DNA from: Pelagomonas calceolata
Lineage: Eukaryota > Sar > Pelagophyceae > Pelagomonadales > Pelagomonadaceae
Direction of reading: 5' to 3'
NCBI GenBank assembly: GCA_918797485.1
Contig: CAKKNE010000003.1
Coordinates: 3,348,001-3,412,000 of the forward strand
DNA: 64,000 bases
Shown: positions 5,701 through 54,643 of the stretch, piece by piece
Layout: every line of letters starts with the position of its first letter
How positions within the stretch are numbered: position 1 is the stretch's first letter
Program-made: the position numbers and the translations under genes
Notes under the pieces: generated by a model
What the model saw: only the letters and a program-made list of their open reading frames with translations
The model's database searches: none
Told to the model about the DNA's origin: nothing

Positions 5701-7400
5701 GGCAAAAAGCACTATGTAATATTACATGCTGGTGCCAAGGGCGCGCTCTGCTAGGTAATATATATACCGTATGGGATATAAATTAGGGTAATGGGCCAAC
5801 TATTATTGGATACAGATGTACATACCGCGACAGTCGTAGAAACTTGTACCGTAGGTACCGTACGGTACGTCCGGTAGTTCCGTAGGTATTTATACTAGCA
5901 CGCCCTTAGTACCTACGGTACGTCACCAGTGCCGTATTCTGGCATTTCTTTCCTAGTCACGGTTACCGTGACACAGGAGTTGGCTATGTTTCTAGGGTAT
6001 TCCGCGTGCCTAGTATAACTTGAACTCTTGAACACGGCGAGCCTGAGGTATAATTTGAATAGTACTAAGGCCCGTGGGTCACGGTTGTGTGATACCGAGA
6101 CGAGGCAGCTGGCATTCCGTCCTGTTAATCGCAGCTTGGCAGCTTGATTCGAACTGGCGAGCACAGGCTTGAGCGCCACAGTCGGGACTCGGAGGCTCAG
6201 GTCAGAGGCAGCTCAGGTAGCCCCGAAGCATGCCAGAAAACGAAGCCCGGGATGCATACACAACGCACAAAACATGTACAGAAAGGAGGCACGGCGGCCC
6301 GCCTAGTATAAGCTCCGACTGGCAGGGTAAATCACCGTGACCGCACAACCGCGGATCGTGATGTCCCCCGGTTCAAGTTGTGCGGTTCAATCGCTCCGGG
6401 CCCCGGTTCAAGTTGTAGTTACGAGAAGTGAGAGACTGAGTTTTGACCCCCCTCGCGGAGGTTGCTTGATTATCCGAAAACCAGGGACGGGTCGGTCGAA
6501 TTGAACTGGTTCGCTGAGGGACCGATTTCTTTCTTTGCGTCGTAATTTTAATTATGTGTTTTCTTTTAGGCCTGTTCTGAGTCTCTATCATTTTCAAGAA
6601 ATTTGATTCTTCTAGTCTAGACCGCCACCTAGATGGAGGAATCACACTGCGGGTCCGGACCCTTCCACAAACAGTTTCCAACATATTAAGGGTTGCATCG
6701 CGAGGAATAGCATCGCGAGGCCCGGTAAAAAAAAAAAGACAGGATCGCCCCTGGCTTGTCACCTAAAATCGTGGTCACGGTTTAGGAGTGTAAATCTCTT
6801 TCGGGTGTGTTGTTATAGAATCTCTCAATACAGCCGGATGAATCTGTCTCTTCTAGTCCTGGATTGTGTAATGAGGAATTCTTAGCTAGGATAAGGCGTG
6901 CAAGGATGTGAGAGTGTTTCATTTGCAAGCATATGGTGTTCCTTGCCTGTGCTATCCGGTTAAAAATGGGCACGCCTTTCGGTTTTGCCTTGGAAGAAGG
7001 GCAGCCTACATAAGCAGAGATCTACAAGGTGTTCGCAACCGTGCCATGCCGCCTTGCGCAACGCTAGTTCCAAAACACCGGCACCACACACATATATAGC
7101 CAACCCTTTAATTCACATCCCATGGGCCACGAATCAACTGCAGCTGTCGTGACATCGACTCAACGAGTTCGCGGTTGCAGAGCCCAGAAGAGAGGGCAGA
7201 CTTGAGTTATGTGCAGATTCTTGGTCTGTGAAATTTCATGTACAGGAAATCGTCAGCAGCCAATCCCATGGCCATGTTTCATCCACCGGCATATCACCAA
7301 CGCATCATCCATGACTCACACCTTAAGAAAACAAATTTTGCACCGTAATAAGCGTGCCTATTGCCTCATCAGAGCCTACTTGGGGGCTTCCATCAACGCA
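5701..7400. other. Intergenic; GTACC-word island, no gene recognised
   Basis: From about 5760 to 5940 the sequence repeats GTACCGTAGGTACC-type words and their inversions. Around 6365-6420 two copies of CGGTTCAAGTTGT sit 40 bp apart. Small open frames between 6373 and 7463 show no domain, and an A-rich run lies at 6726-6737. It may hold the divergent regulatory region of the C2-pseudokinase gene, but nothing specific can be called. Confidence 0.4.
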
Positions 7401-9757
7401 CTAGACGTACTTTTTGAGCTGCGCGAGTTGTTTCTCAAAGAGGGAAAATGCAGTACGATATAGGCTCGTGTCAAGCGTGACAGCAGCATTGAGGCGCTCT
7501 ATTTTGCTTGCATCAACACCAGATGCAGATGTGTTCTGATTATGGGTGTGGACTGCCGCCATGTTCTTAGGTATGGACTTACCAGCCAAAGCAAATGCAA
7601 AGAGCATCATGGATTCTTCAAAGCGCTCAGTAATACCAATGACAGCAAACCATTCCTCCAAATGTTCCTCAACAAACCGTAGATCTGCGACATTAGCAGG
7701 GCCCTCTCTCACGCGGCGGTTTTCGATTGGGTTGATGCGTGTCTCACGGTCACGCTGGCGCCAGGGCACATAATAATTTGTACTCATTTGGTACCAGTCC
7801 TCAGGCACGAGTTGAAGAAAGTGCTCAAGCATAAAATTTCCTTTCTCTTCAGCCCACTGGGCAATGTTCAATGTGCGCATGTATACTGCTCCACGAGATC
7901 CGGCACAACATTGATCCTCAAAACTCACAGCATGGCAATACTTGTGCTCGGACAGGATTCGAGCAACAGGCTCGCGAAGGACCTGGGATGATGAGGGCTA
8001 CGTAGGAGTGAAACATATTGTCGCGCGGGTTACATGCCACATAATATGCACAGGGGGCTTGAGGGTGGCTAGCACAGGCGCCAAATGCAAATGCACCAAA
8101 GAGAACCCCATAAGGATGTTTCGCCTGTTTTTTTACGTCCCAATCTCGCCGTGTGTCTATGTGCAGAGATTGCATCTTGACTTTTGCTCCCGGATGCTGA
8201 CTGTTACGTTGCTTTAGAAGAAAACCTTTCACAAAGAGTTTTTTCACTGAGTTCCCAGCAGCTTTTGGAATATGAAGAAATATGGTAGGCGCATTCCGGT
8301 AGATGGCATCATCAGGTTCCAAGTCTTTCGCTCTCGTCGCTCTTGTTTTTGGTAAGTTAATTCCAGAAAGGTCTTTTATTATGTTGTTCTCTGGTTGTGT
8401 GCTATCATTCTTCACTAACTGCCCACCTCGGTTGCTGAAAAAGTTCGGCAAGCCAATAGGGCCTTGGGTACTCTGGCCAGAAAGTTCTCGAGAATGCAAA
8501 ACCACGCAGTCACGTATGGCACTATACGTCGATGCTTGATCCGCAACGTCCTTGACTATGTTAGGACATGCTGACAACAGTGCTAGCCTGGTTTGCTGCT
8601 CGTCCACATCCACAAAACAGCTCGATGAGACTGGCAGCTTACTGTAACTAACGCCAGAATGAAACAGGGAGGCTCTAAATGCATGTTGGCCTAGCAGCAA
8701 ATCATGCCGTGAAAGAAAGTACAATGCTAAATTCCAGTTAGCCAAGAGTCGATGTGTTGCTGATCCATTTCGCATGACCTACAGCATTATGTGCTGTTAA
8801 TATATTATATATTTGACCAAAATCACACTGCTGGTTGAAAAACCATAGTTTCGACTCTCACCTCCGGAAAGTCTGTTGGTATATCAAATACCCTAGCAAC
8901 TATGTCACCACCGTAAAAGTGACCCTTAGACACTGGAACAAAGGCCACTTGCGGCCCCTGGGAGTCAACTGTCCTAAAAAGACTATGCAAAGACTCACAG
9001 ACAATTGTTTCTACATCAAGAAACAAGATTTTATGGTAGATGTGGAGGCCAATCATCATTGCCCGTATCTTGAGGGTGTGCATGTGCCGTTTAACCACCA
9101 TTGGCCTGCTTTCATGTTCATTTTTCCAGTCTAGCATGCAGGTACCATCCTCTGGCCCACATTCTCCCTCGTAAAATTTGCGTGACCATTGCGTCTTGCG
9201 GGTAGTTACTTCATCTCTATTTGACTCCTCCCAACGCAAATAAGTGGGTTGACCGGTTTCCACAACACTGTCAAAGACTAGCGATGACCACTGTACTGTC
9301 TGTGACTTGCCTCTTGAGTCAGTCACTAGTAGCAGCCCGAATTCTGCTTGCGAGTTTCTAAGACGGACAGACCGACCTGACTTGCATGCTTTTTGTATAG
9401 CTTCCAGACCGACAGCCGAATAGATGACACCTCGCTCTTGCGTAGACAATGAGCGAGTGGATAGCTCATTTGCCAGAACTACCTATATCTCTTGTAGTGG
9501 GCAAAATTGCGTTTGGTATAAGGAATAGTGACCGATTGTATCCATTCCCTTGACAAGGCGCTCTTGTAATGTTTAAATTTGAGATTTGATTCGGTCTTTC
9601 CCGAGTGACGTCGGTGATTGGGCCCGAGTGTCGCTTGAGTATCCGCGGCCTCTACGGTGGCAAGCCATAGGACTGGCAACATACTTACAGACCTTGCGAA
9701 AGCCAAAGATTTCAGCCAGCACCCACACGCATTATTATAGCCAGATGTTATCGCCAT
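7401..9757 (-). CDS. Glycosyltransferase-sulfotransferase fusion protein
   Basis: Four exons join in phase 0: 9757-9689, 9482-8829, 8778-8041 and 7982-7401. Introns are 206, 50 and 58 nt and the product is 680 aa. The N-terminal half resembles a GT-A glycosyltransferase. It starts RGVIYSAVG, has a metal-site region KILFLDVETIVCESLHSLF (DVE in place of DxD), then TMVFQPAV, a Trp/Gln segment and a late CVVLHSREL histidine. The C-terminal half is a Golgi-type sulfotransferase: TIFLHIPKAAGNSVKKLF is the 5'-phosphosulfate-binding loop for PAPS, and LREPVARILSEHKYC, created by splicing, is the 3'-phosphate-binding Arg/Ser motif. FEESMMLF near the end also fits the family. Such a protein would add a sugar and a sulfate to glycans, probably in the Golgi. 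No clear signal anchor is visible in the short first exon, so the true N-terminus may be further upstream. Confidence 0.75.
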
Positions 9758-17600: not shown

Positions 17601-18240
17601 ATTTGGGTTTTGCAAAGCAGGATAATCTCTCCTGTGACTTGAAGCCAAGCCTGAGGTCCGGGCAATTGGCAATTAGTATCCTATCGGCCCGGGTAGTCTA
17701 CCGTAGTAGCAAGGGCAGCGGTGCAATTATAGGACAGACGTGGACAGTGGCAGGCGGGGCTCCTCAGGCCTAGGTTGCCACTTACCCCAGGGGTTATTAA
17801 CCCCAATCGCGGCCCGGGGTCAGTAACCCGGGTAATTACCCGTTAGGACGGGTTATTAACCCCAGGATCTTATATCTAGAGGGGTAGGGGAGGCCCGGGA
17901 GGGGGCCTGGGCCGCGCCGGGCCACATGACTTGGTACTTGCCTTGGCGCACCTGTACGTATCCAAAAGCTCAACGGGCTGCTTGCGCCCATCCGCTCGTC
18001 CTGAGGGGTCTTTTGCTAATCTCACTAAAAACGGGTTTAGTCGAAACCCGTTATTGAGCGGGTTATTAACCCCGGATCCCCTCCGAGGGGTAATTAAATA
18101 ATTAAATTAATTAATAAATAAATTAAGGAAGACCTAAAAAAAGGAACAAGCCTAAGAGCCTTCTCCCTGCTCGGTCAGGATACCCAACCGGAGCTTCGAA
18201 ATAGCAATAAGATAACGATACAACGGGTTTTCAATCTCCC
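17601..18240. repeat. GGGTTATTAACCCC repeats and LINE 3' tail
   Basis: Four copies of GGTTATTAACCCC or close variants occur between 17787 and 18075, each nearly self-complementary. From about 18095 to 18180 there is an AT-rich ATTTA tail and the words AGGAAGACCTAAAAAAAGG and CTAAGAGCCTTCTCCCT. These recur at 24650 and partly at 57170 and look like the 3' end of the LINE remnant next to it, read on the minus strand. Confidence 0.55.
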
Positions 18241-18243
18241 GGG

Positions 18244-18850
18244 GTGTCCCCCATGACCAGCCGACAGCGGTACTCGTCAGTCAATTGCCGTGCGAGGGGG
18301 CAAAAACCGAGTATAATCTCGCAAGAAATGCCTCCCGTTCTTCCTCAAAGGCCTCGCATCCAAACAACGTGTGTTGGATTGTTTCCGACTCGCGAGATTC
18401 GCAACAAGGGCATTGCGCGTTACGAACAAGCTGCATTCGGCAACTCGAGCTCCGGAGGTCGTGGCAACCCAATCGGAACTTCGTCTTCAATCTCCGCCCT
18501 TCCCGAAGAGACGAGGGGCACGTTCTGAGTAAATATTCCGGCAAGCCGAAACGTTCTTTCTCGGCCCAATTGCTCATGTTATGAAGGGTCGTCATTCAAG
18601 TTCTCTTGAAACCGTCGGCGAGCTCGGATACCCGGCGCGAGGCGACGAATTCATTGACGAACTTTTTCGCTGCCGGTTTTTTTAGAGGCCCGGGCCAAAT
18701 CGCTTCTAACGCAAGATTTTCCGGGAACAAAGCCCCGTTCCTCGACGATCCGCGACCTTTAGAATCATTCATCAGGCCGTCGTATACGCGGCGAACGAGG
18801 AAATCCCGAGGGTCCAACGACAAGATGTTGTTGCGGAATTTCAACGCCGC
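18244..18850 (-). mobile_element. Non-LTR retrotransposon remnant (reverse transcriptase C-terminus)
   Basis: Two minus-strand reading blocks in the same frame, separated by one TGA at about 18596. The downstream block has FRLGCHDLRSSSC, then CPCCESRESETIQHTLFGCE, the zinc-binding tail (C-x2-C...H-x4-C) found after the reverse transcriptase of LINE-type elements. The upstream block (ENLALEAIWPGPLKKPAAK) is consistent with the region before it. The internal stop and the missing catalytic part indicate a dead, 5'-truncated copy. The TGA lies inside a TTCAAG-type word (ATTCAAGTTCTCTTGAAA). Confidence 0.7.
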
Positions 18851-20039
18851 GGCGTTTATACGAGTTGCGACGGACGCGACTATAGGTTAATAACGGGTAA
18901 TTAATTAACTTGAACAGGTAAGTGGCAACCTAGGCCTACAGAGCGGGTAAAAGGTATGGACCCCTTCAGGCTTCGCGCTTGGTGAGGGGGATTTTCATAA
19001 ACTAGGTTCCTGGGGTCTATTCCCACCTTTTGACCAAGGTCCGGGGAGAGACGAAACGGCTAGGATCTTGGAATCATAGGTGCTGACATATTAGTGGGAA
19101 TATTAGTAGGATAGTGAATAGTGTATTGAACCGCCGCCATACCGCCATAGCCGCCATAAACGGAGAAATGTAGGCACACCTCGTATTTTTAGTACTCGGG
19201 ATCTGGAATATCAGGCACAAATTTTTTTTTCCATTCCCTTCCATGAGTAGTCATTTTCCTATAACAACATGGATCTTGCCGATTAAAACCAGCAGAACAT
19301 ACCATACATAGTAGAATTCGATGATTTCCTTTGTCGACTTCGTCTTGACAAATCGCTGCAGCATGTGAAAGTTTTTTCCATGTAAGGCGAGTGCGCCTAC
19401 CGATGTCGTCGAAATGCTGTATGTGACAAGTGCACACCTTCAAATGTGGCAATTTCGCAAGGAGACCAAGCCTCAAAGACTAATGGTCGACGTGCGGGGG
19501 ATATCATCGCACCCAGTAGAGTAGGCCGCTCAACACGATACTCGTTCTTGGCCTGAGCCACAAATGATTGAGACCCATAGAGAATATGCTTGCCGGGTCG
19601 TTTCCATATTGCCCGTATGCTACGTGTGGAACTATGAGATCGGACACTACGGTCACGTAATCTTCGACCTATGCCGTCGTTTAACCGGCGCATGTAAATC
19701 ACGATCAACCATGCGTGATGTTCGCCAGTGGTGGTGAATGCGGTGCTTTTCCTCATCGTCCATTGTGTTTTTTTAAGGTACCGTAGGTACCCCCCTAGGG
19801 CGCAGTACGATTTCGAGAGATGCGCGCTTTGTGTTTTGAGGCGTATCTGGGTATTCTACCCCCTCATGTAGCTGCGCTAACCCTAATTAAACTGAATTTT
19901 CAAGACGGCATCGACACCAGGCGCCGCGCTGGCAGTGTTCATCCTCGATTTCAAGTTCACTGGCCGCAGGCTTGACTCGGATGCAAGTGCTGCCCTTCAT
20001 GAGATTCGGTCCAATACATGAGGTTCAAAAGAAAATGCG
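18851..20039. other. Intergenic; unrecognised minus-strand open frames
   Basis: Two overlapping minus-strand frames (19756-19397 and 19476-19189) are rich in Cys, His and Arg (KVCTCHIQHFDD, HRILLCMVCSAGF). They could be the worn end of a DNA-transposon gene, but I do not recognise a family. A GGTACCGTAGGTACC word lies at about 19777-19791. Confidence 0.3.
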
Positions 20040-41844: not shown

Positions 41845-42669
41845 TTAGCAGCACGCCTTGGTTTCGGCAGGCTTGGGCCTGACGCAGGGTAGTAAGAAAT
41901 TCATGCCAAAAAAACGTCAACTCTCGTTGGTACGCACGGAATTAGTGGAAATGCCTCTCGGTCTGATTGGGGTGCATGTGATGGCAACTTCTGCGCTACG
42001 CCGCCGGAGATGTGAGCCTTGATAGACAGCCCATACGTACCAATCTCATGAAAAAGTGATTTGACATTAGTATCATTCTTTGCTGATGTTTCTATGTGCA
42101 TGATTCCATTTTCTTCTGCATACTGTTGAGCTTCCTGTGACTACAAATACGCTGAGGGCAGCCGCGATCAATCACACCTGATAATCAATCTTCCGCTTGC
42201 TTTGTAAGTCTGCCTTGTTGCCAGCAAGCGCGATGACAGCATTAGGATCACCACGTCGTTGCAATTCTTTCACCCAGGACTTTGCACCATTAAATGAGTC
42301 TTTATTTGTTATATCGTAGACTACGATTGCAGCCGCCGCACCTCGATAGTACATTGGGGCGAGACTTCGATAACGCTCTATGGAAGAACTAAGCTGGAGT
42401 AACTCACAAAGTTTCCTGTCTCACCTTGTCCAGCGGTGTCCCATATCTCAAACTTGACAGTTGCAGCTCCGGTCGCAACAGATTGCGTTAAAAACGCAGC
42501 TAGGAGAGAAAATAAAAAACGCCAGCGACAAAGGGCGGGTACCTCCAATTGTTGGCTCCTGAAACTCGAAGAATTCGTCACGGACGAAACGGACGACTAG
42601 GCACGATTTCCCCACCGCCGTGTCACCGAGGAGCACTAACTTAAAGTGGCATACACGTGCAGCACTCAT
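41845..42669 (-). CDS. RAB5: Rab5-type small GTPase
   Basis: About six exons. Exon one, from ATG 42669, reads [20 protein letters not shown] and [11 protein letters not shown] (P-loop and effector region). It joins to AAFLTQSV and [10 protein letters not shown] (switch II), then to [20 protein letters not shown] and LAGNKADL (base recognition NKxD). A further exon reads [20 protein letters not shown], followed by [12 protein letters not shown] last small exon, acceptor CTGCGTCAG, gives [10 protein letters not shown] with the stop at 41845-41847. The terminal Cys-Cys is the geranylgeranylation site. [13 protein letters not shown] is diagnostic for the Rab5 group, which acts in early endosome fusion. 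Introns are about 40-70 nt. An in-frame ATG five codons upstream is also possible. Confidence 0.92.
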
Positions 42670-42858
42670 CACCTCGGGCAGCACTCGTCTCCCTAGTGGC
42701 TAGTGAAATAGCAGCTGACTAATAGTTGGGAATTTATTCTTTGCTCAGTTGCCGCCCATCGGGCCAACCAATCCCGGGGATAGGTAGTAGATCTCACCGG
42801 GGCCCCCTTCTATCAAACGGGAGGGAGGGCGGGCTAAATAAATCTGAGGACCGGCGTG

Positions 42859-43060
42859 AACCACAGCCAATTTGGCTTTGTGGTTGGCCGGAGGATCCGA
42901 GGGGAGCCTAAGGCTAGTACAGTAACCAGGGTAACTGTGCTAGCTGGCTCCTAGCCTCGCGTTAGAATTTGGTGCACTCACAGAGGTGTCCCACTGGCAG
43001 CCCAAGGGGCAGCCTGAGCGGCCCACTGGCACTGCAGGAATAACCTGGGTTGTGTTTGGT
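42859..43060. repeat. Dispersed repeat family A, copy 2
   Basis: Shares CAATTTGGCTTTGTGGTTGG, CTAGTACAGTAACCA, GGGTAACTGTGCTAGCTGG, GGTGCACTCACAGAGGTG and CCTGGGTTGTGT in order with 25139-25310. It carries an extra CCCACTGGCAGCC / GCCCACTGGCACTGC insert. Confidence 0.7.
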
Positions 43061-43145
43061 GCCATAATAGACCCCATTGTGCTGGAAGCCAGCGTGGAGA
43101 AAATTTCTCAGGCACATGGTGCCTCTTTGTGTAAACGACAAATGT

Positions 43146-43153
43146 CACGACGG
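43146..43153. repeat. Target-site duplication, left (CACGACGG)
   Basis: An identical 8-mer follows the right end at 43523-43530. Removing the element and one copy would restore an uninterrupted site. Confidence 0.88.
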
Positions 43154-43522
43154 CAGGGTGGGACGCCAAACACTTACCAAACGTTTACTTCTCCCTCCGA
43201 GAGGCCTCCAAACACTTACCATCACGTCCCAAACACTTACAACCCGCACCCACGGTAACTTGAACCCGCGCGCGGCCGGGCGGCGGCCCATTACCGCACT
43301 CCCCGGGTGCCCCCCGCCCTGGGCAGCCCTAGCGACGTACCTGGAGTCAATTGCAGCCCGATATGCCGGTATTTCTCCGGTCTTGGCCGTTTAAACCCAC
43401 TTTTCCGAAGCAAAAACCCGTACCAAACACTTAGAATTTCGTCCAAACACTCACGTCAAACACTTAGATTCGGGCCGAGACACTTACCAAACAATCCCCA
43501 AAAGGTCTTGCGTCCCACCCTG
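43154..43522. mobile_element. hAT-type miniature inverted-repeat element
   Basis: A 369-bp element with perfect 13-bp terminal inverted repeats, CAGGGTGGGACGC at the left and GCGTCCCACCCTG at the right. It is flanked by a perfect 8-bp direct duplication CACGACGG at 43146-43153 and 43523-43530. An 8-bp target duplication with CAGGG-starting ends is the signature of the hAT superfamily. Inside, about seven to eight copies of CCAAACACTTA(C/G) or near variants lie in the same orientation in the two subterminal zones (43166-43240 and 43422-43489), as expected for transposase-binding repeats. No transposase frame fits inside, so it is non-autonomous. Confidence 0.88.
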
Positions 43523-43530
43523 CACGACGG

Positions 43531-44491
43531 TCGCCACAGTGTCTTGTAGCCTAGTAGTTGACTCGGAGGATGAACATATGTAAATATGACTGGGAATAAA
43601 ATACCCAGCTAGCTGAGAAATACCCAGAGGGCCCAACAGATCATGGATAGGCCCCTAGTACACTAGGCCGCTAAATACGTTGATGTGCCCCACATCGTAG
43701 CATTCCGAGTCAGCTTACCCTAGTCTCCCTAGTGGCTAGTCACGGTGACTCGGAAATAGCATATGTTGCAGCGTTACGCCGAGAACACCGAATCGGTACA
43801 CCATGGTACAACAAGTTGACCGTAGCTTCGCCCGGTCGTACCAGGGTAGCAGCCGCGCGCGGCACTGGCAGCTTGTGCGCACGCCCCGGGCCGGCGAGGT
43901 TTCGTGCGGACAAACTTGACTCGGAAGGGGATATCCGCTTCGAGTATGCGAAATAGCCTACAATACAACCTACAGAACCCTCTACCAATTCTTACGGTAA
44001 GGATTCAAGTTAAGTGTATTCATGATTGAGAGGCAAATGCCACTGGCAACGTGCTACTTGATGATATTTACCAAAACGCACATTTCAATGAAACGAACGA
44101 CAAGGATTGAGGGCGATTTTCACCCCCTTTTTCACCAAAGGGAAACAAGAGCTTACCCTTATCAAAAGGGGGAGTGCGATAAACAGGGCGAAATACCCCG
44201 GCGCCCCCCCCTATCCTATACTATATATAGTACCCTTCTTATACACTTACATCACCCTTAAGCCCGCAACGCGTAATAAACACAGTTAAACCAAAATTAC
44301 TTAGTGTATTTTAAGGTAGCTCCGCGGCAGACTATCTCAGCCGCCGCACTCCCAAAGGTGCGTACTCCTTTGGTCTTGCATTATTCGCACAGATCCCTAA
44401 CCAATCTACAATAACTATCTTATTTTATTGCATCCGTAAGAGCACCGTATGTGGAGGTTCCAGCGACAGTCATAACGTTGCCTCCAAACTC
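43531..44491. repeat. Intergenic; dispersed repeat family C copy 2
   Basis: 43827-43920 is an inverted copy of 32891-32975 (CCCGGTCGTACCAGGGTAGC ... GGCACTGGCAGCTTGTGCGC ... GGCGAGGTTTCGTGCGGAC). The rest is unremarkable, with the probable promoter of the guanylate-kinase-like gene at its right end. Confidence 0.5.
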
Positions 44492-45268
44492 ATGGAGCGG
44501 ACGAATCGTTCGCGGAAGCACTTGGAAAACGTCTTGTGTCTCCAAGAAATTTGTCATCTGAATGACCGCAAGGTAGCTCTAAAGGAAGACAATTTCAAAT
44601 ACTTAATCGGGCAGATGGACTTGCGCAGCATCGTGGGAGATTTTACGGCCGCTATTCTCCTCGAAAAACCAACAAGGATATTCTCTTTTGCATCTGAGCA
44701 TTTTGCAGCGCTGAGAACCTCGACGACGCCAAGTCCGCCAATGCTAAATGAAGGAGTGCCCGCTCTTGTTGTTACTGGTGCCAGACAACTGCAGGTCTTG
44801 GATGCGTTGAACCAACAATTCCCAGGGAAATTCCTATCTCCAGTCATGACAACAACCAGACCGCCACATCGTAGTGAGCGACCGGGGATTACAATGAACT
44901 TTGTCACTCTTGAGATGATCAATGCAGACATTAGAGGCGGAAAATACCTAGAATCTGGTGCCTCAGCAGAAGTCGGCTGCAAAGGTGAGCTGATTGGAAC
45001 TACGCTGGAGGCGGTTGCACGTATTCGAGCCACAGGGGCTGTCCCATTACTCCATGTTTCATACGAACGTGCTGTCTCAGCTCGCATGTGCGGCAACATC
45101 AAGCCCACCCCCTATGCAATATTAGTGTGCAGTGAGAACGAGCCGCCCCAACAGGAACACAGGTCTAGTTTTGATAAGCTTATCTACGCGAGGAGCCTAG
45201 ATCAAGTAATTGCGGAACTAGTCGCTGTGATCAAGGCAAAGTTTCCCACTGTGGTCCGGGCTTCTTAA
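44492..45268 (+). CDS. RIIa dimerization domain plus degenerate guanylate kinase
   Basis: A single exon of 258 aa. Residues about 50-75 (MDLRSIVGDFTAAILLEKPT followed by SFASEHFAAL) match the RII-alpha dimerization/docking fold, in which protein kinase A and many axonemal proteins pair and bind A-kinase anchoring helices. Residues 88-250 follow guanylate kinase: MTTTRPPHRSERPGITMNFV corresponds to the SxTTRxPRxxExxGxDYxFV GMP-binding lid. KGELIGTTLEAVARI matches YGTS...V, and AVPLLHVSYE the core strand. The Walker A loop GxSGxGKS is replaced by VTGARQLQVLDAL, so ATP binding and catalysis are probably lost, as in MAGUK proteins. RII-fold plus nucleotide-kinase-like proteins occur in flagella, so an axonemal scaffold is a reasonable inference. 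Confidence 0.72.
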   Translation: MERTNRSRKHLENVLCLQEICHLNDRKVALKEDNFKYLIGQMDLRSIVGDFTAAILLEKPTRIFSFASEHFAALRTSTTPSPPMLNEGVPALVVTGARQLQVLDALNQQFPGKFLSPVMTTTRPPHRSERPGITMNFVTLEMINADIRGGKYLESGASAEVGCKGELIGTTLEAVARIRATGAVPLLHVSYERAVSARMCGNIKPTPYAILVCSENEPPQQEHRSSFDKLIYARSLDQVIAELVAVIKAKFPTVVRAS

Positions 45269-53241: not shown

Positions 53242-54643
53242 CGATTTCGTTTTGGGTAGTGGCCTTTTTACACCATTTTCGAGCATCCAGAGGTCATCAC
53301 GACCTGTATTCGCTACGCTCACAGGTCATCACGACCTCTAAGCTCGAAACAGGCGCAAAAAAAGCCCAACCGAAAAAAATTCAGCATTGACCTTAATTAA
53401 TTAAGTAATCATGCCAGTGATATCAAAAAGAAAATTTGAAAACTGAACGAGCAAAGCGGCGAAGTTCGGTTCCGACTTAAGCCCTCTTACATGCCGTCCA
53501 GGCAAAACCCATACCGTCTCGACCGCCCGGGCCGGGCCGCCCACTGAAGGGCCCGGCACCCAAAGTGAGAGAATACCGTAGCTCTTCCCCTTTCATAGCT
53601 TAAACCCGCAAACTTGCTACGAACATACTTAAGGTAATGACTAATATTCACGCAAAACAGGGGCTGCAAACGGTAGGGGGGTTTGGGGTGCGCCGGCCGC
53701 GGGCAGGCCGCGGGCCGGACGGCGGAGACTCAAAGTTCCAAATCGACGTCGTCGTCGTCCGCATCGTCGTCGTCCGCATCGTCGTCGTCCGCATCGTCGT
53801 CGTCCGCATCGTCGTCGTCCGCATCGACTATAACCCCGCGCCGGTCCCCGGGCCCGTGGTTTCTCGCAGGAGCGCCCTCGAAGCTCTCTATTCGTCCGCG
53901 TCGACTTCGACGCGGCCGCCGCGGTGCAATGAATTCCAGCTTTTCGAGAGTGCTTGAAGTTGTCCGCGGGGCTCGGGGCATACCCACCGTACTGTCCGCA
54001 CCGTTTTTTTTGTGCAGTGGCATGCCCACATCACGTATCGCACATCATGTGGTGGGAGAGCGATTTGGCGCACCGCGAAATGTTGTGCTGCCGCGCTTTT
54101 TCTTGGCGCACCGCCTCGGCCGAATCCTTGAGCGGTCAGAAATAGCTTGGGGCTGCCTATGGGTGCGTTTAGGCCGCGCACGAGGCCAAAACAAAATCAC
54201 GTTTAATCGAGATTCACGGGTTTTTGCCGTTTTTCAGCACGCCGCTGCGCCCTAGTCCCGATCCCCGTACACCCCCCTGACCTCAGGCGGCCCTTAAGAG
54301 GGCCCTATGAGTCCCCCCGACCCAATCCGCGGGTACAGGCTAACGATGGAGCGAATCCCTATGGTGGGTGCCGGCCCCGTGCCCACTGGCACGCCGTCTC
54401 GGCAAAATGAACCATCGATTTAAAACCCGATAGCCTAGTAGTAGTTTTTTTGTGGTTTTATGAAACAACTCCTAAGTACGGGCGCATTGTGACGAGGCAG
54501 GATACTAGTAGTCACACTGGCATCCCCGCTCGCAATGAAGTACGAACTTGTGAACTTCGACTCCGAGCCTGAGTCAGTGCCCTGAAGTTTTCTGACTTGA
54601 GGTGGTCCCAGTTGCTCACCCGGTTGCTCGGGACCTCGCCGCA
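53242..54643. other. Intergenic; acidic-coding 15-mer tandem repeat
   Basis: Near 53290-53345 there is ATCACGACCTG repeated twice. Five exact 15-bp units lie at 53751-53825. From 53630 to 54250 overlapping GC-rich open frames exist on both strands with no domain. No gene is supported. Confidence 0.4.
53751..53825. repeat. Tandem repeat, (GTCGTCGTCCGCATC) x5
   Basis: Five perfect 15-bp units. On the minus strand one frame reads as runs of Asp with Ala (DADDD), on the plus strand as Ser-rich. A coding role is possible but unproven. Confidence 0.85.

Follow-up and report, generated by a model that had tools for sequence, protein, structure and literature searches.

A probable hAT-type MITE and a recurrent 6-bp insertion motif in the genome of Pelagomonas calceolata

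Pelagophytes have introners, which are often MITE-like. Those of Aureococcus are small non-autonomous DNA elements, and a family with 8-bp duplications has been shown among them (PMC9860276). Elements of the hAT superfamily are described in the literature as having 8-bp duplications and short terminal inverted repeats (TIRs). Mar, a hAT (Buster) MITE of Drosophila, has the 11-bp TIR CAG(G/A)GGTAGGC, and the duplications of Buster elements have the consensus nnnTAnnn (PMC3517528). Maize Ds is non-autonomous, with short shared TIRs, subterminal repeats and a variable interior (PMC3260210). In Hermes, the BED domain binds subterminal repeats (PMC10368747).

We analysed a 64,000-nt stretch of Pelagomonas calceolata DNA (the window) that contains an element resembling Mar, Ds and the Aureococcus introners in part (Table 1). 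Like Mar (PMC3517528), this MITE is short and non-coding, with an 8-bp duplication, a TIR (CAGGGTGGGACGC) close to that of Mar and no active autonomous partner identified; compared with Mar, it has fewer copies, and no full-length relic with its ends was found. Its duplication CACGACGG departs from the Buster consensus, as does GTACCCTG, the duplication of a second copy, these being the only two clean insertions. The MITE shares with Ds all the features listed above; Ds, however, has Ac in the same species, whereas no such partner of the MITE is known. Small size, the non-autonomous state and a pelagophyte host are common to the MITE and the Aureococcus introners. An introner is found in a transcribed gene, from whose RNA it is spliced; the MITE is located outside every window ORF of 250 aa or more.

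The published assembly of P. calceolata RCC100 consists of six nuclear contigs, 32.4 Mb in total, with plastid and mitochondrial contigs of 90 kb and 39 kb (PMC9481584). The assembly searched here has 32,445,274 bp in eight contigs, C1 to C8 (six large; C7 has 90,574 bp and C8 39,373 bp), and the window is on C3, where the MITE with its duplications spans C3:3391146-3391530. GC content is 50% in the window against a genome average of 63%, so that the window is probably part of the low-GC, putatively centromeric region reported in PMC9481584. The window encodes a Cfap43-type coiled-coil protein, which fits a flagellated alga.

The sequence-only reading of this DNA had claimed 13-bp perfect inverted ends and identical flanking 8-mers, and both were found exactly in place: the TIRs match at 13 of 13 positions and have a CAGGG-type tip, and the duplication is perfect. 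The same reading had counted seven to eight subterminal repeats in one orientation. Orientation and subterminal confinement stood; the number requires a tolerance of two mismatches, as CCAAACACTTA occurs four times exactly, six times with at most one mismatch and eight times with at most two. Shuffling the MITE sequence gave a mean count of 0.2 and a maximum of 3. A search of the whole window for TIRs matching at 11 or more of 13 positions and flanked by an 8/8 duplication returned just the MITE and the interval 53547-54380, and 20 sequences simulated from the window by a first-order Markov model contained no element that passed the same criteria. That the ends form an inverted repeat by chance is therefore vanishingly improbable; this explanation is refuted by a second copy of the element, which has an 8-bp duplication of its own. 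An Rfam search of 42500-44500 gave no match, nor did PDB sequence searches.

Two further elements were seen. The one at 53547-54380 of the window has an 8-bp duplication GCCCACTG, inverted ends matching at 11 of 13 positions and an 87% copy in locus L036. The other, in L036 itself (7045-7426), has 382 bp, CTAGGTTGGCATT ends and a perfect duplication GGCAAGTG.

Table 1. Features of the MITE and of its flanks (window positions)
Feature	Position	Strand
Probable non-autonomous hAT-type MITE, 369 bp, without coding capacity	43154..43522	+
Target-site duplication (8 bp), left copy, CACGACGG	43146..43153	.
Target-site duplication (8 bp), right copy, CACGACGG	43523..43530	.
Terminal inverted repeat (13 bp), left, CAGGGTGGGACGC	43154..43166	+
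Terminal inverted repeat (13 bp), right	43510..43522	-
Subterminal zone, left, with four repeats of CCAAACACTTA type at 43166, 43177, 43208 and 43229	43166..43239	+
Subterminal zone, right, with four repeats of CCAAACACTTA type at 43423, 43443, 43456 and 43476 in the polarity of the left zone	43423..43486	+
AACTTGAA, an XY-C-rc(XY)-G-XY motif within the MITE	43257..43264	.
CACTGGCA, left flank: insertion of exactly 6 bp when compared with repeat copies L058-L060	42992..42999	.
AGCCTGAG and CACTGGCA inside a 20-bp insertion relative to L058-L060	43011..43031	.
GACTCGGA, right flank: within a 12-bp gap relative to the paralogous site L055	43560..43567	.

A DNA search of the genome with the MITE gave 11 matches at about ten loci, and the C6 copy used as a query added one further locus, C3:4630985. 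A 24-mer from the left subterminal core was present at six loci and the 3′ core at three; the exact 13-mer TIR was found only at the two ends of the copy in the window. Many copies had been predicted from the sequence; the family proved to be small, and most of its members are decayed. The copies aligned were a C6 copy (390 bp) and a C2 copy (417 bp), both matching the MITE from end to end, an 89-bp C4 copy, a longer C2 copy with a nested insertion and partial copies. Several have decayed ends and no clean duplication, and the MITE in the window is the only full-length copy with both ends and the duplication perfect. A looser TIR pattern, CAGGGTNGGACG, matched 17 places versus 16 for its reversed control, and its new places had neither subterminal motifs nor paired ends.

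The boundaries given in the sequence-only reading are shared by further copies, among them the 89-bp copy (C4:1853196-1853284), which has related ends and the perfect 8-bp duplication GTACCCTG; its right part reads CACGTCCCACCCTG. Judged by its sequence, this copy looks like the product of a deletion in the long form between the CGTCCCA sequences of the two subterminal zones; internal deletion of this kind would yield shorter MITE copies. If the 89-bp copy transposed as such, the right-hand repeats would be dispensable, though the deletion may postdate insertion.

Three observations concern copies of the family. The C1 copy (L002 / L035) is cut off some 94 bp in, where a near-perfect palindrome stands (ACTAATCTACCGCTAGCGGTACATTAGT). 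In L008, a 441-bp element (1763-2203) with TIR CTAGGGTGCAGTTTACG and duplication GTCGCGCG is nested within a MITE copy, and locus L021 (C3:4630985) resembles the empty site.

When the flanks of the MITE were joined around a single CACGACGG and used as a query, C2:118638-118894 matched across the junction at 86% and without the MITE. At the junction this paralogue reads AAATGTC-GCCACAG versus AAATGTCACGACGGTCGCCACAG in the joined window; it lacks nine nucleotides, ACGACGGTC, which include most of the duplicated octamer. By this comparison the MITE is an insertion relative to the paralogue, which is not itself an exact pre-insertion sequence. The left flank belongs to a repeat that recurs at C5:1638636, C2:3712367 and C5:1581404. 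The left end of the MITE is also found at C3:4882922 and on C1, where the closest relative has 98% identity over 90 bp. The insertion had been called recent on the strength of its undecayed ends. Perfect ends and duplication next to decayed relatives fit this view, while the comparison supplies no date and the empty-site paralogue differs by 9 bp; in relative terms, a recent insertion is plausible though unproven.

We read the element, with a probability of roughly 0.8, as a non-autonomous hAT-superfamily MITE of the P. calceolata nuclear genome; the sequence-only reading had likewise seen a hAT-type miniature element. Support comes from the 8-bp duplication, the CAGGG ends, the subterminal repeats, additional copies sharing these boundaries and the presence in the genome of an intact CAGGG-ended hAT-like element that also has an 8-bp duplication and same-polarity subterminal repeats (in locus L016, described below). 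The MITE is ordinary in kind. Duplications of 8 bp are not exclusive to hAT elements, as Zisupton also makes them (PMC12730594), and no autonomous partner was found that would fix the class. Membership in another superfamily whose target duplications are also about 8 bp long (Kyakuja-Dileera-Zisupton, Mutator-like, P or Merlin) is nevertheless improbable, given that CAGGG tips, a short TIR and subterminal repeats fit hAT and the L016 element, while Kyakuja of Laccaria lacks TIRs and makes duplications of 7 bp (PMC12730594). Searches of the genome for KDZ and for CACTA transposases, both run without a positive control, gave no match.

The sequence-only reading had further predicted one autonomous copy with a hAT transposase. 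Genome searches with the exact 13-mer, with the subterminal cores of the 5′ and 3′ ends and with the looser TIR pattern, which can miss intron-split or degenerate copies, revealed no transposase-bearing element with the ends of the MITE; the core searches returned short copies alone. The C1 copy was considered as part of a long autonomous element and rejected, as it had no 3′ end or duplication partner in roughly 10 kb; the ORFs near it are of DnaJ and MCM-binding type.

Two hAT-like elements with other ends, both of which look complete, were identified. The first (C4:4499549-4503199; L016 4050-7700) has 3651 bp, the TIR CAGGGCAGCAGAAG matching at 14 of 14 positions, the duplication TTGCTCGC and an intact 721-aa ORF with a Pfam Dimer_Tnp_hAT score of 22.3 bits (cut-off 21.4). 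It carries ACCCTTACC-type subterminal repeats at both ends, mostly of one polarity: the ACCCTT repeats number eight forward and none reverse in the left 350 bp, and five and two on the right. Same-polarity arrays at both ends are therefore not peculiar to the MITE. A protein search found no second copy of this element, and structure prediction of its transposase from the single sequence was unusable (pLDDT 33). The second element, on C5 (L017 4022-6890), has a CTAGGTTGCCA-type TIR, the duplication ACACTCGG and an 832-aa ORF whose hAT dimer domain scored above the cut-off in the genome search and below it in hmmscan. Both were rejected as the autonomous partner of the MITE, as their ends and subterminal motifs differ. 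A non-autonomous relative of the L017 element, with TIR CTAGGTTGCCACTTACC, occupies 17770-18933 of the window; compared with L017, it carries an inserted CTTGAA close to its right end.

By analogy with the BED domains of Hermes, a hAT transposase supplied in trans would recognise the CAGGG tips and the CCAAACACTTA repeats of the MITE, excise it and reinsert it across an 8-bp staggered cut. Such a transposase may be extinct, degenerate or intron-split, or may be that of the L016 or L017 element acting across families. Mobilisation by the 721-aa transposase, a variant compatible with a hAT-type MITE, appears rather unlikely. The MITE and the L016 element do share the CAGGG tip, the 8-bp duplication and same-polarity subterminal repeats with similar cores (CACTTACC versus CCCTTACC), and the ORF is intact; beyond CAGGG, however, the TIRs have nothing in common, and the L016 element has no CCAAACACTTA within two mismatches. 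Closer ends are normally required.

The copies and flanks of the MITE also led to a second pattern. When window 8-mers were ranked against first-order expectation, GACTCGGA, ACCGTGAC, AACTTGAA, CCCGGGCC, AGCCTGAG and CACTGGCA stood near the top, and all have the form XY-C-rc(XY)-G-XY. Taken over all 16 dinucleotides, this motif occurs 185 times in the window versus 16.9 expected under a second-order Markov model, and the fifteen central pairs other than C...G give 6 to 63. Leaving out dinucleotides made of C and G only, C...G has 153 occurrences and the next highest pair 42. Among words XY-C-NN-G-XY, only NN = rc(XY) is far above expectation; the controls gave 22 versus 10.9 (NN = XY reversed) and 18 versus 11.8 (NN = XY), and the others were as expected. 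The flanks of the motif show no preference.

Location of the motif is uneven. Outside the ORFs of at least 250 aa, which make up 45% of the window, lie 178 of the 185 motifs. The repeat-rich loci L058-L060 have 9 to 13 motifs versus 0.8 expected, and L008, L009 and L036 carry it as well; ORF-dense samples range from no enrichment to about four-fold. Two organelle samples showed no enrichment (0 and 1 motifs versus 0.4 and 0.9 expected). Genome-wide, GACTCGGA occurs 2663 times versus 1035 for the reversed word; extrapolation from this count and from the window suggests thousands of 6-bp insertions across the non-coding DNA of the genome.

That the motif arises by insertion is visible between repeat copies. 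In 33 alignments of such copies, 19 indels were of exactly 6 bp versus seven of 4 bp, one of 5 bp and three of 7 bp; some of these are one event in two alignments, so that independent events are fewer than 19. The motif was present at 13 of the 19; for 6-bp intervals placed at random in the window, the chance of overlapping a motif is 3.6%. Examples are CCAAAA[CTTGAA]GG in L010, TATC[CGAGTC]AGCG in L021, TAGCC[CGGGCC]CCC in L006 and, in the left flank of the MITE, CCCA[CTGGCA]GCCC versus CCCAGCCC in L058-L060. Nine neighbouring motifs are spaced exactly 6 bp apart, a pattern that points to slippage or to a site acted on repeatedly and that simple hopping does not explain.

We put it at even odds that a mutational process not yet described has left its traces in the MITE copies and in their flanks, as 6-bp insertions that turn any XY into XY-C-rc(XY)-G-XY. 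From their sequence, the insertions look like footprints, either of a transposon that makes 2-bp duplications or of some other templated-insertion process, possibly one unrelated to any transposon. Excision by the hAT transposases Hermes and Kat1 forms hairpins on the flanks (PMC4763223). In a comparable scheme, a transposon with a 2-bp duplication XY and a 5′-terminal C would be excised with hairpins on the flanks, and a nick one base inside the element would leave each flank ending in XY-C-rc(XY). If the hairpins were opened two bases past the tip, the 3′ ends (C-rc(XY) and C-XY) could pair via rc(XY):XY, and fill-in would produce XY-C-rc(XY)-G-XY, an excision footprint at very many sites. 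The searches made found no donor element for such footprints, and the literature searched contained no description of 6-bp XY-C-rc(XY)-G-XY insertions.

The MITE offers a worked hAT-type example in a pelagophyte, and the intact hAT-like ORFs of the same genome would allow it to be tested. Less ordinary than the MITE are the 6-bp insertions, for which the statistics are strong and which would surprise a specialist. If confirmed, they would amount to a densely written, legible history of how DNA broke, or transposons were excised, in an abundant ocean alga, and their grammar would be precise enough to constrain the chemistry of the enzyme from sequence alone.
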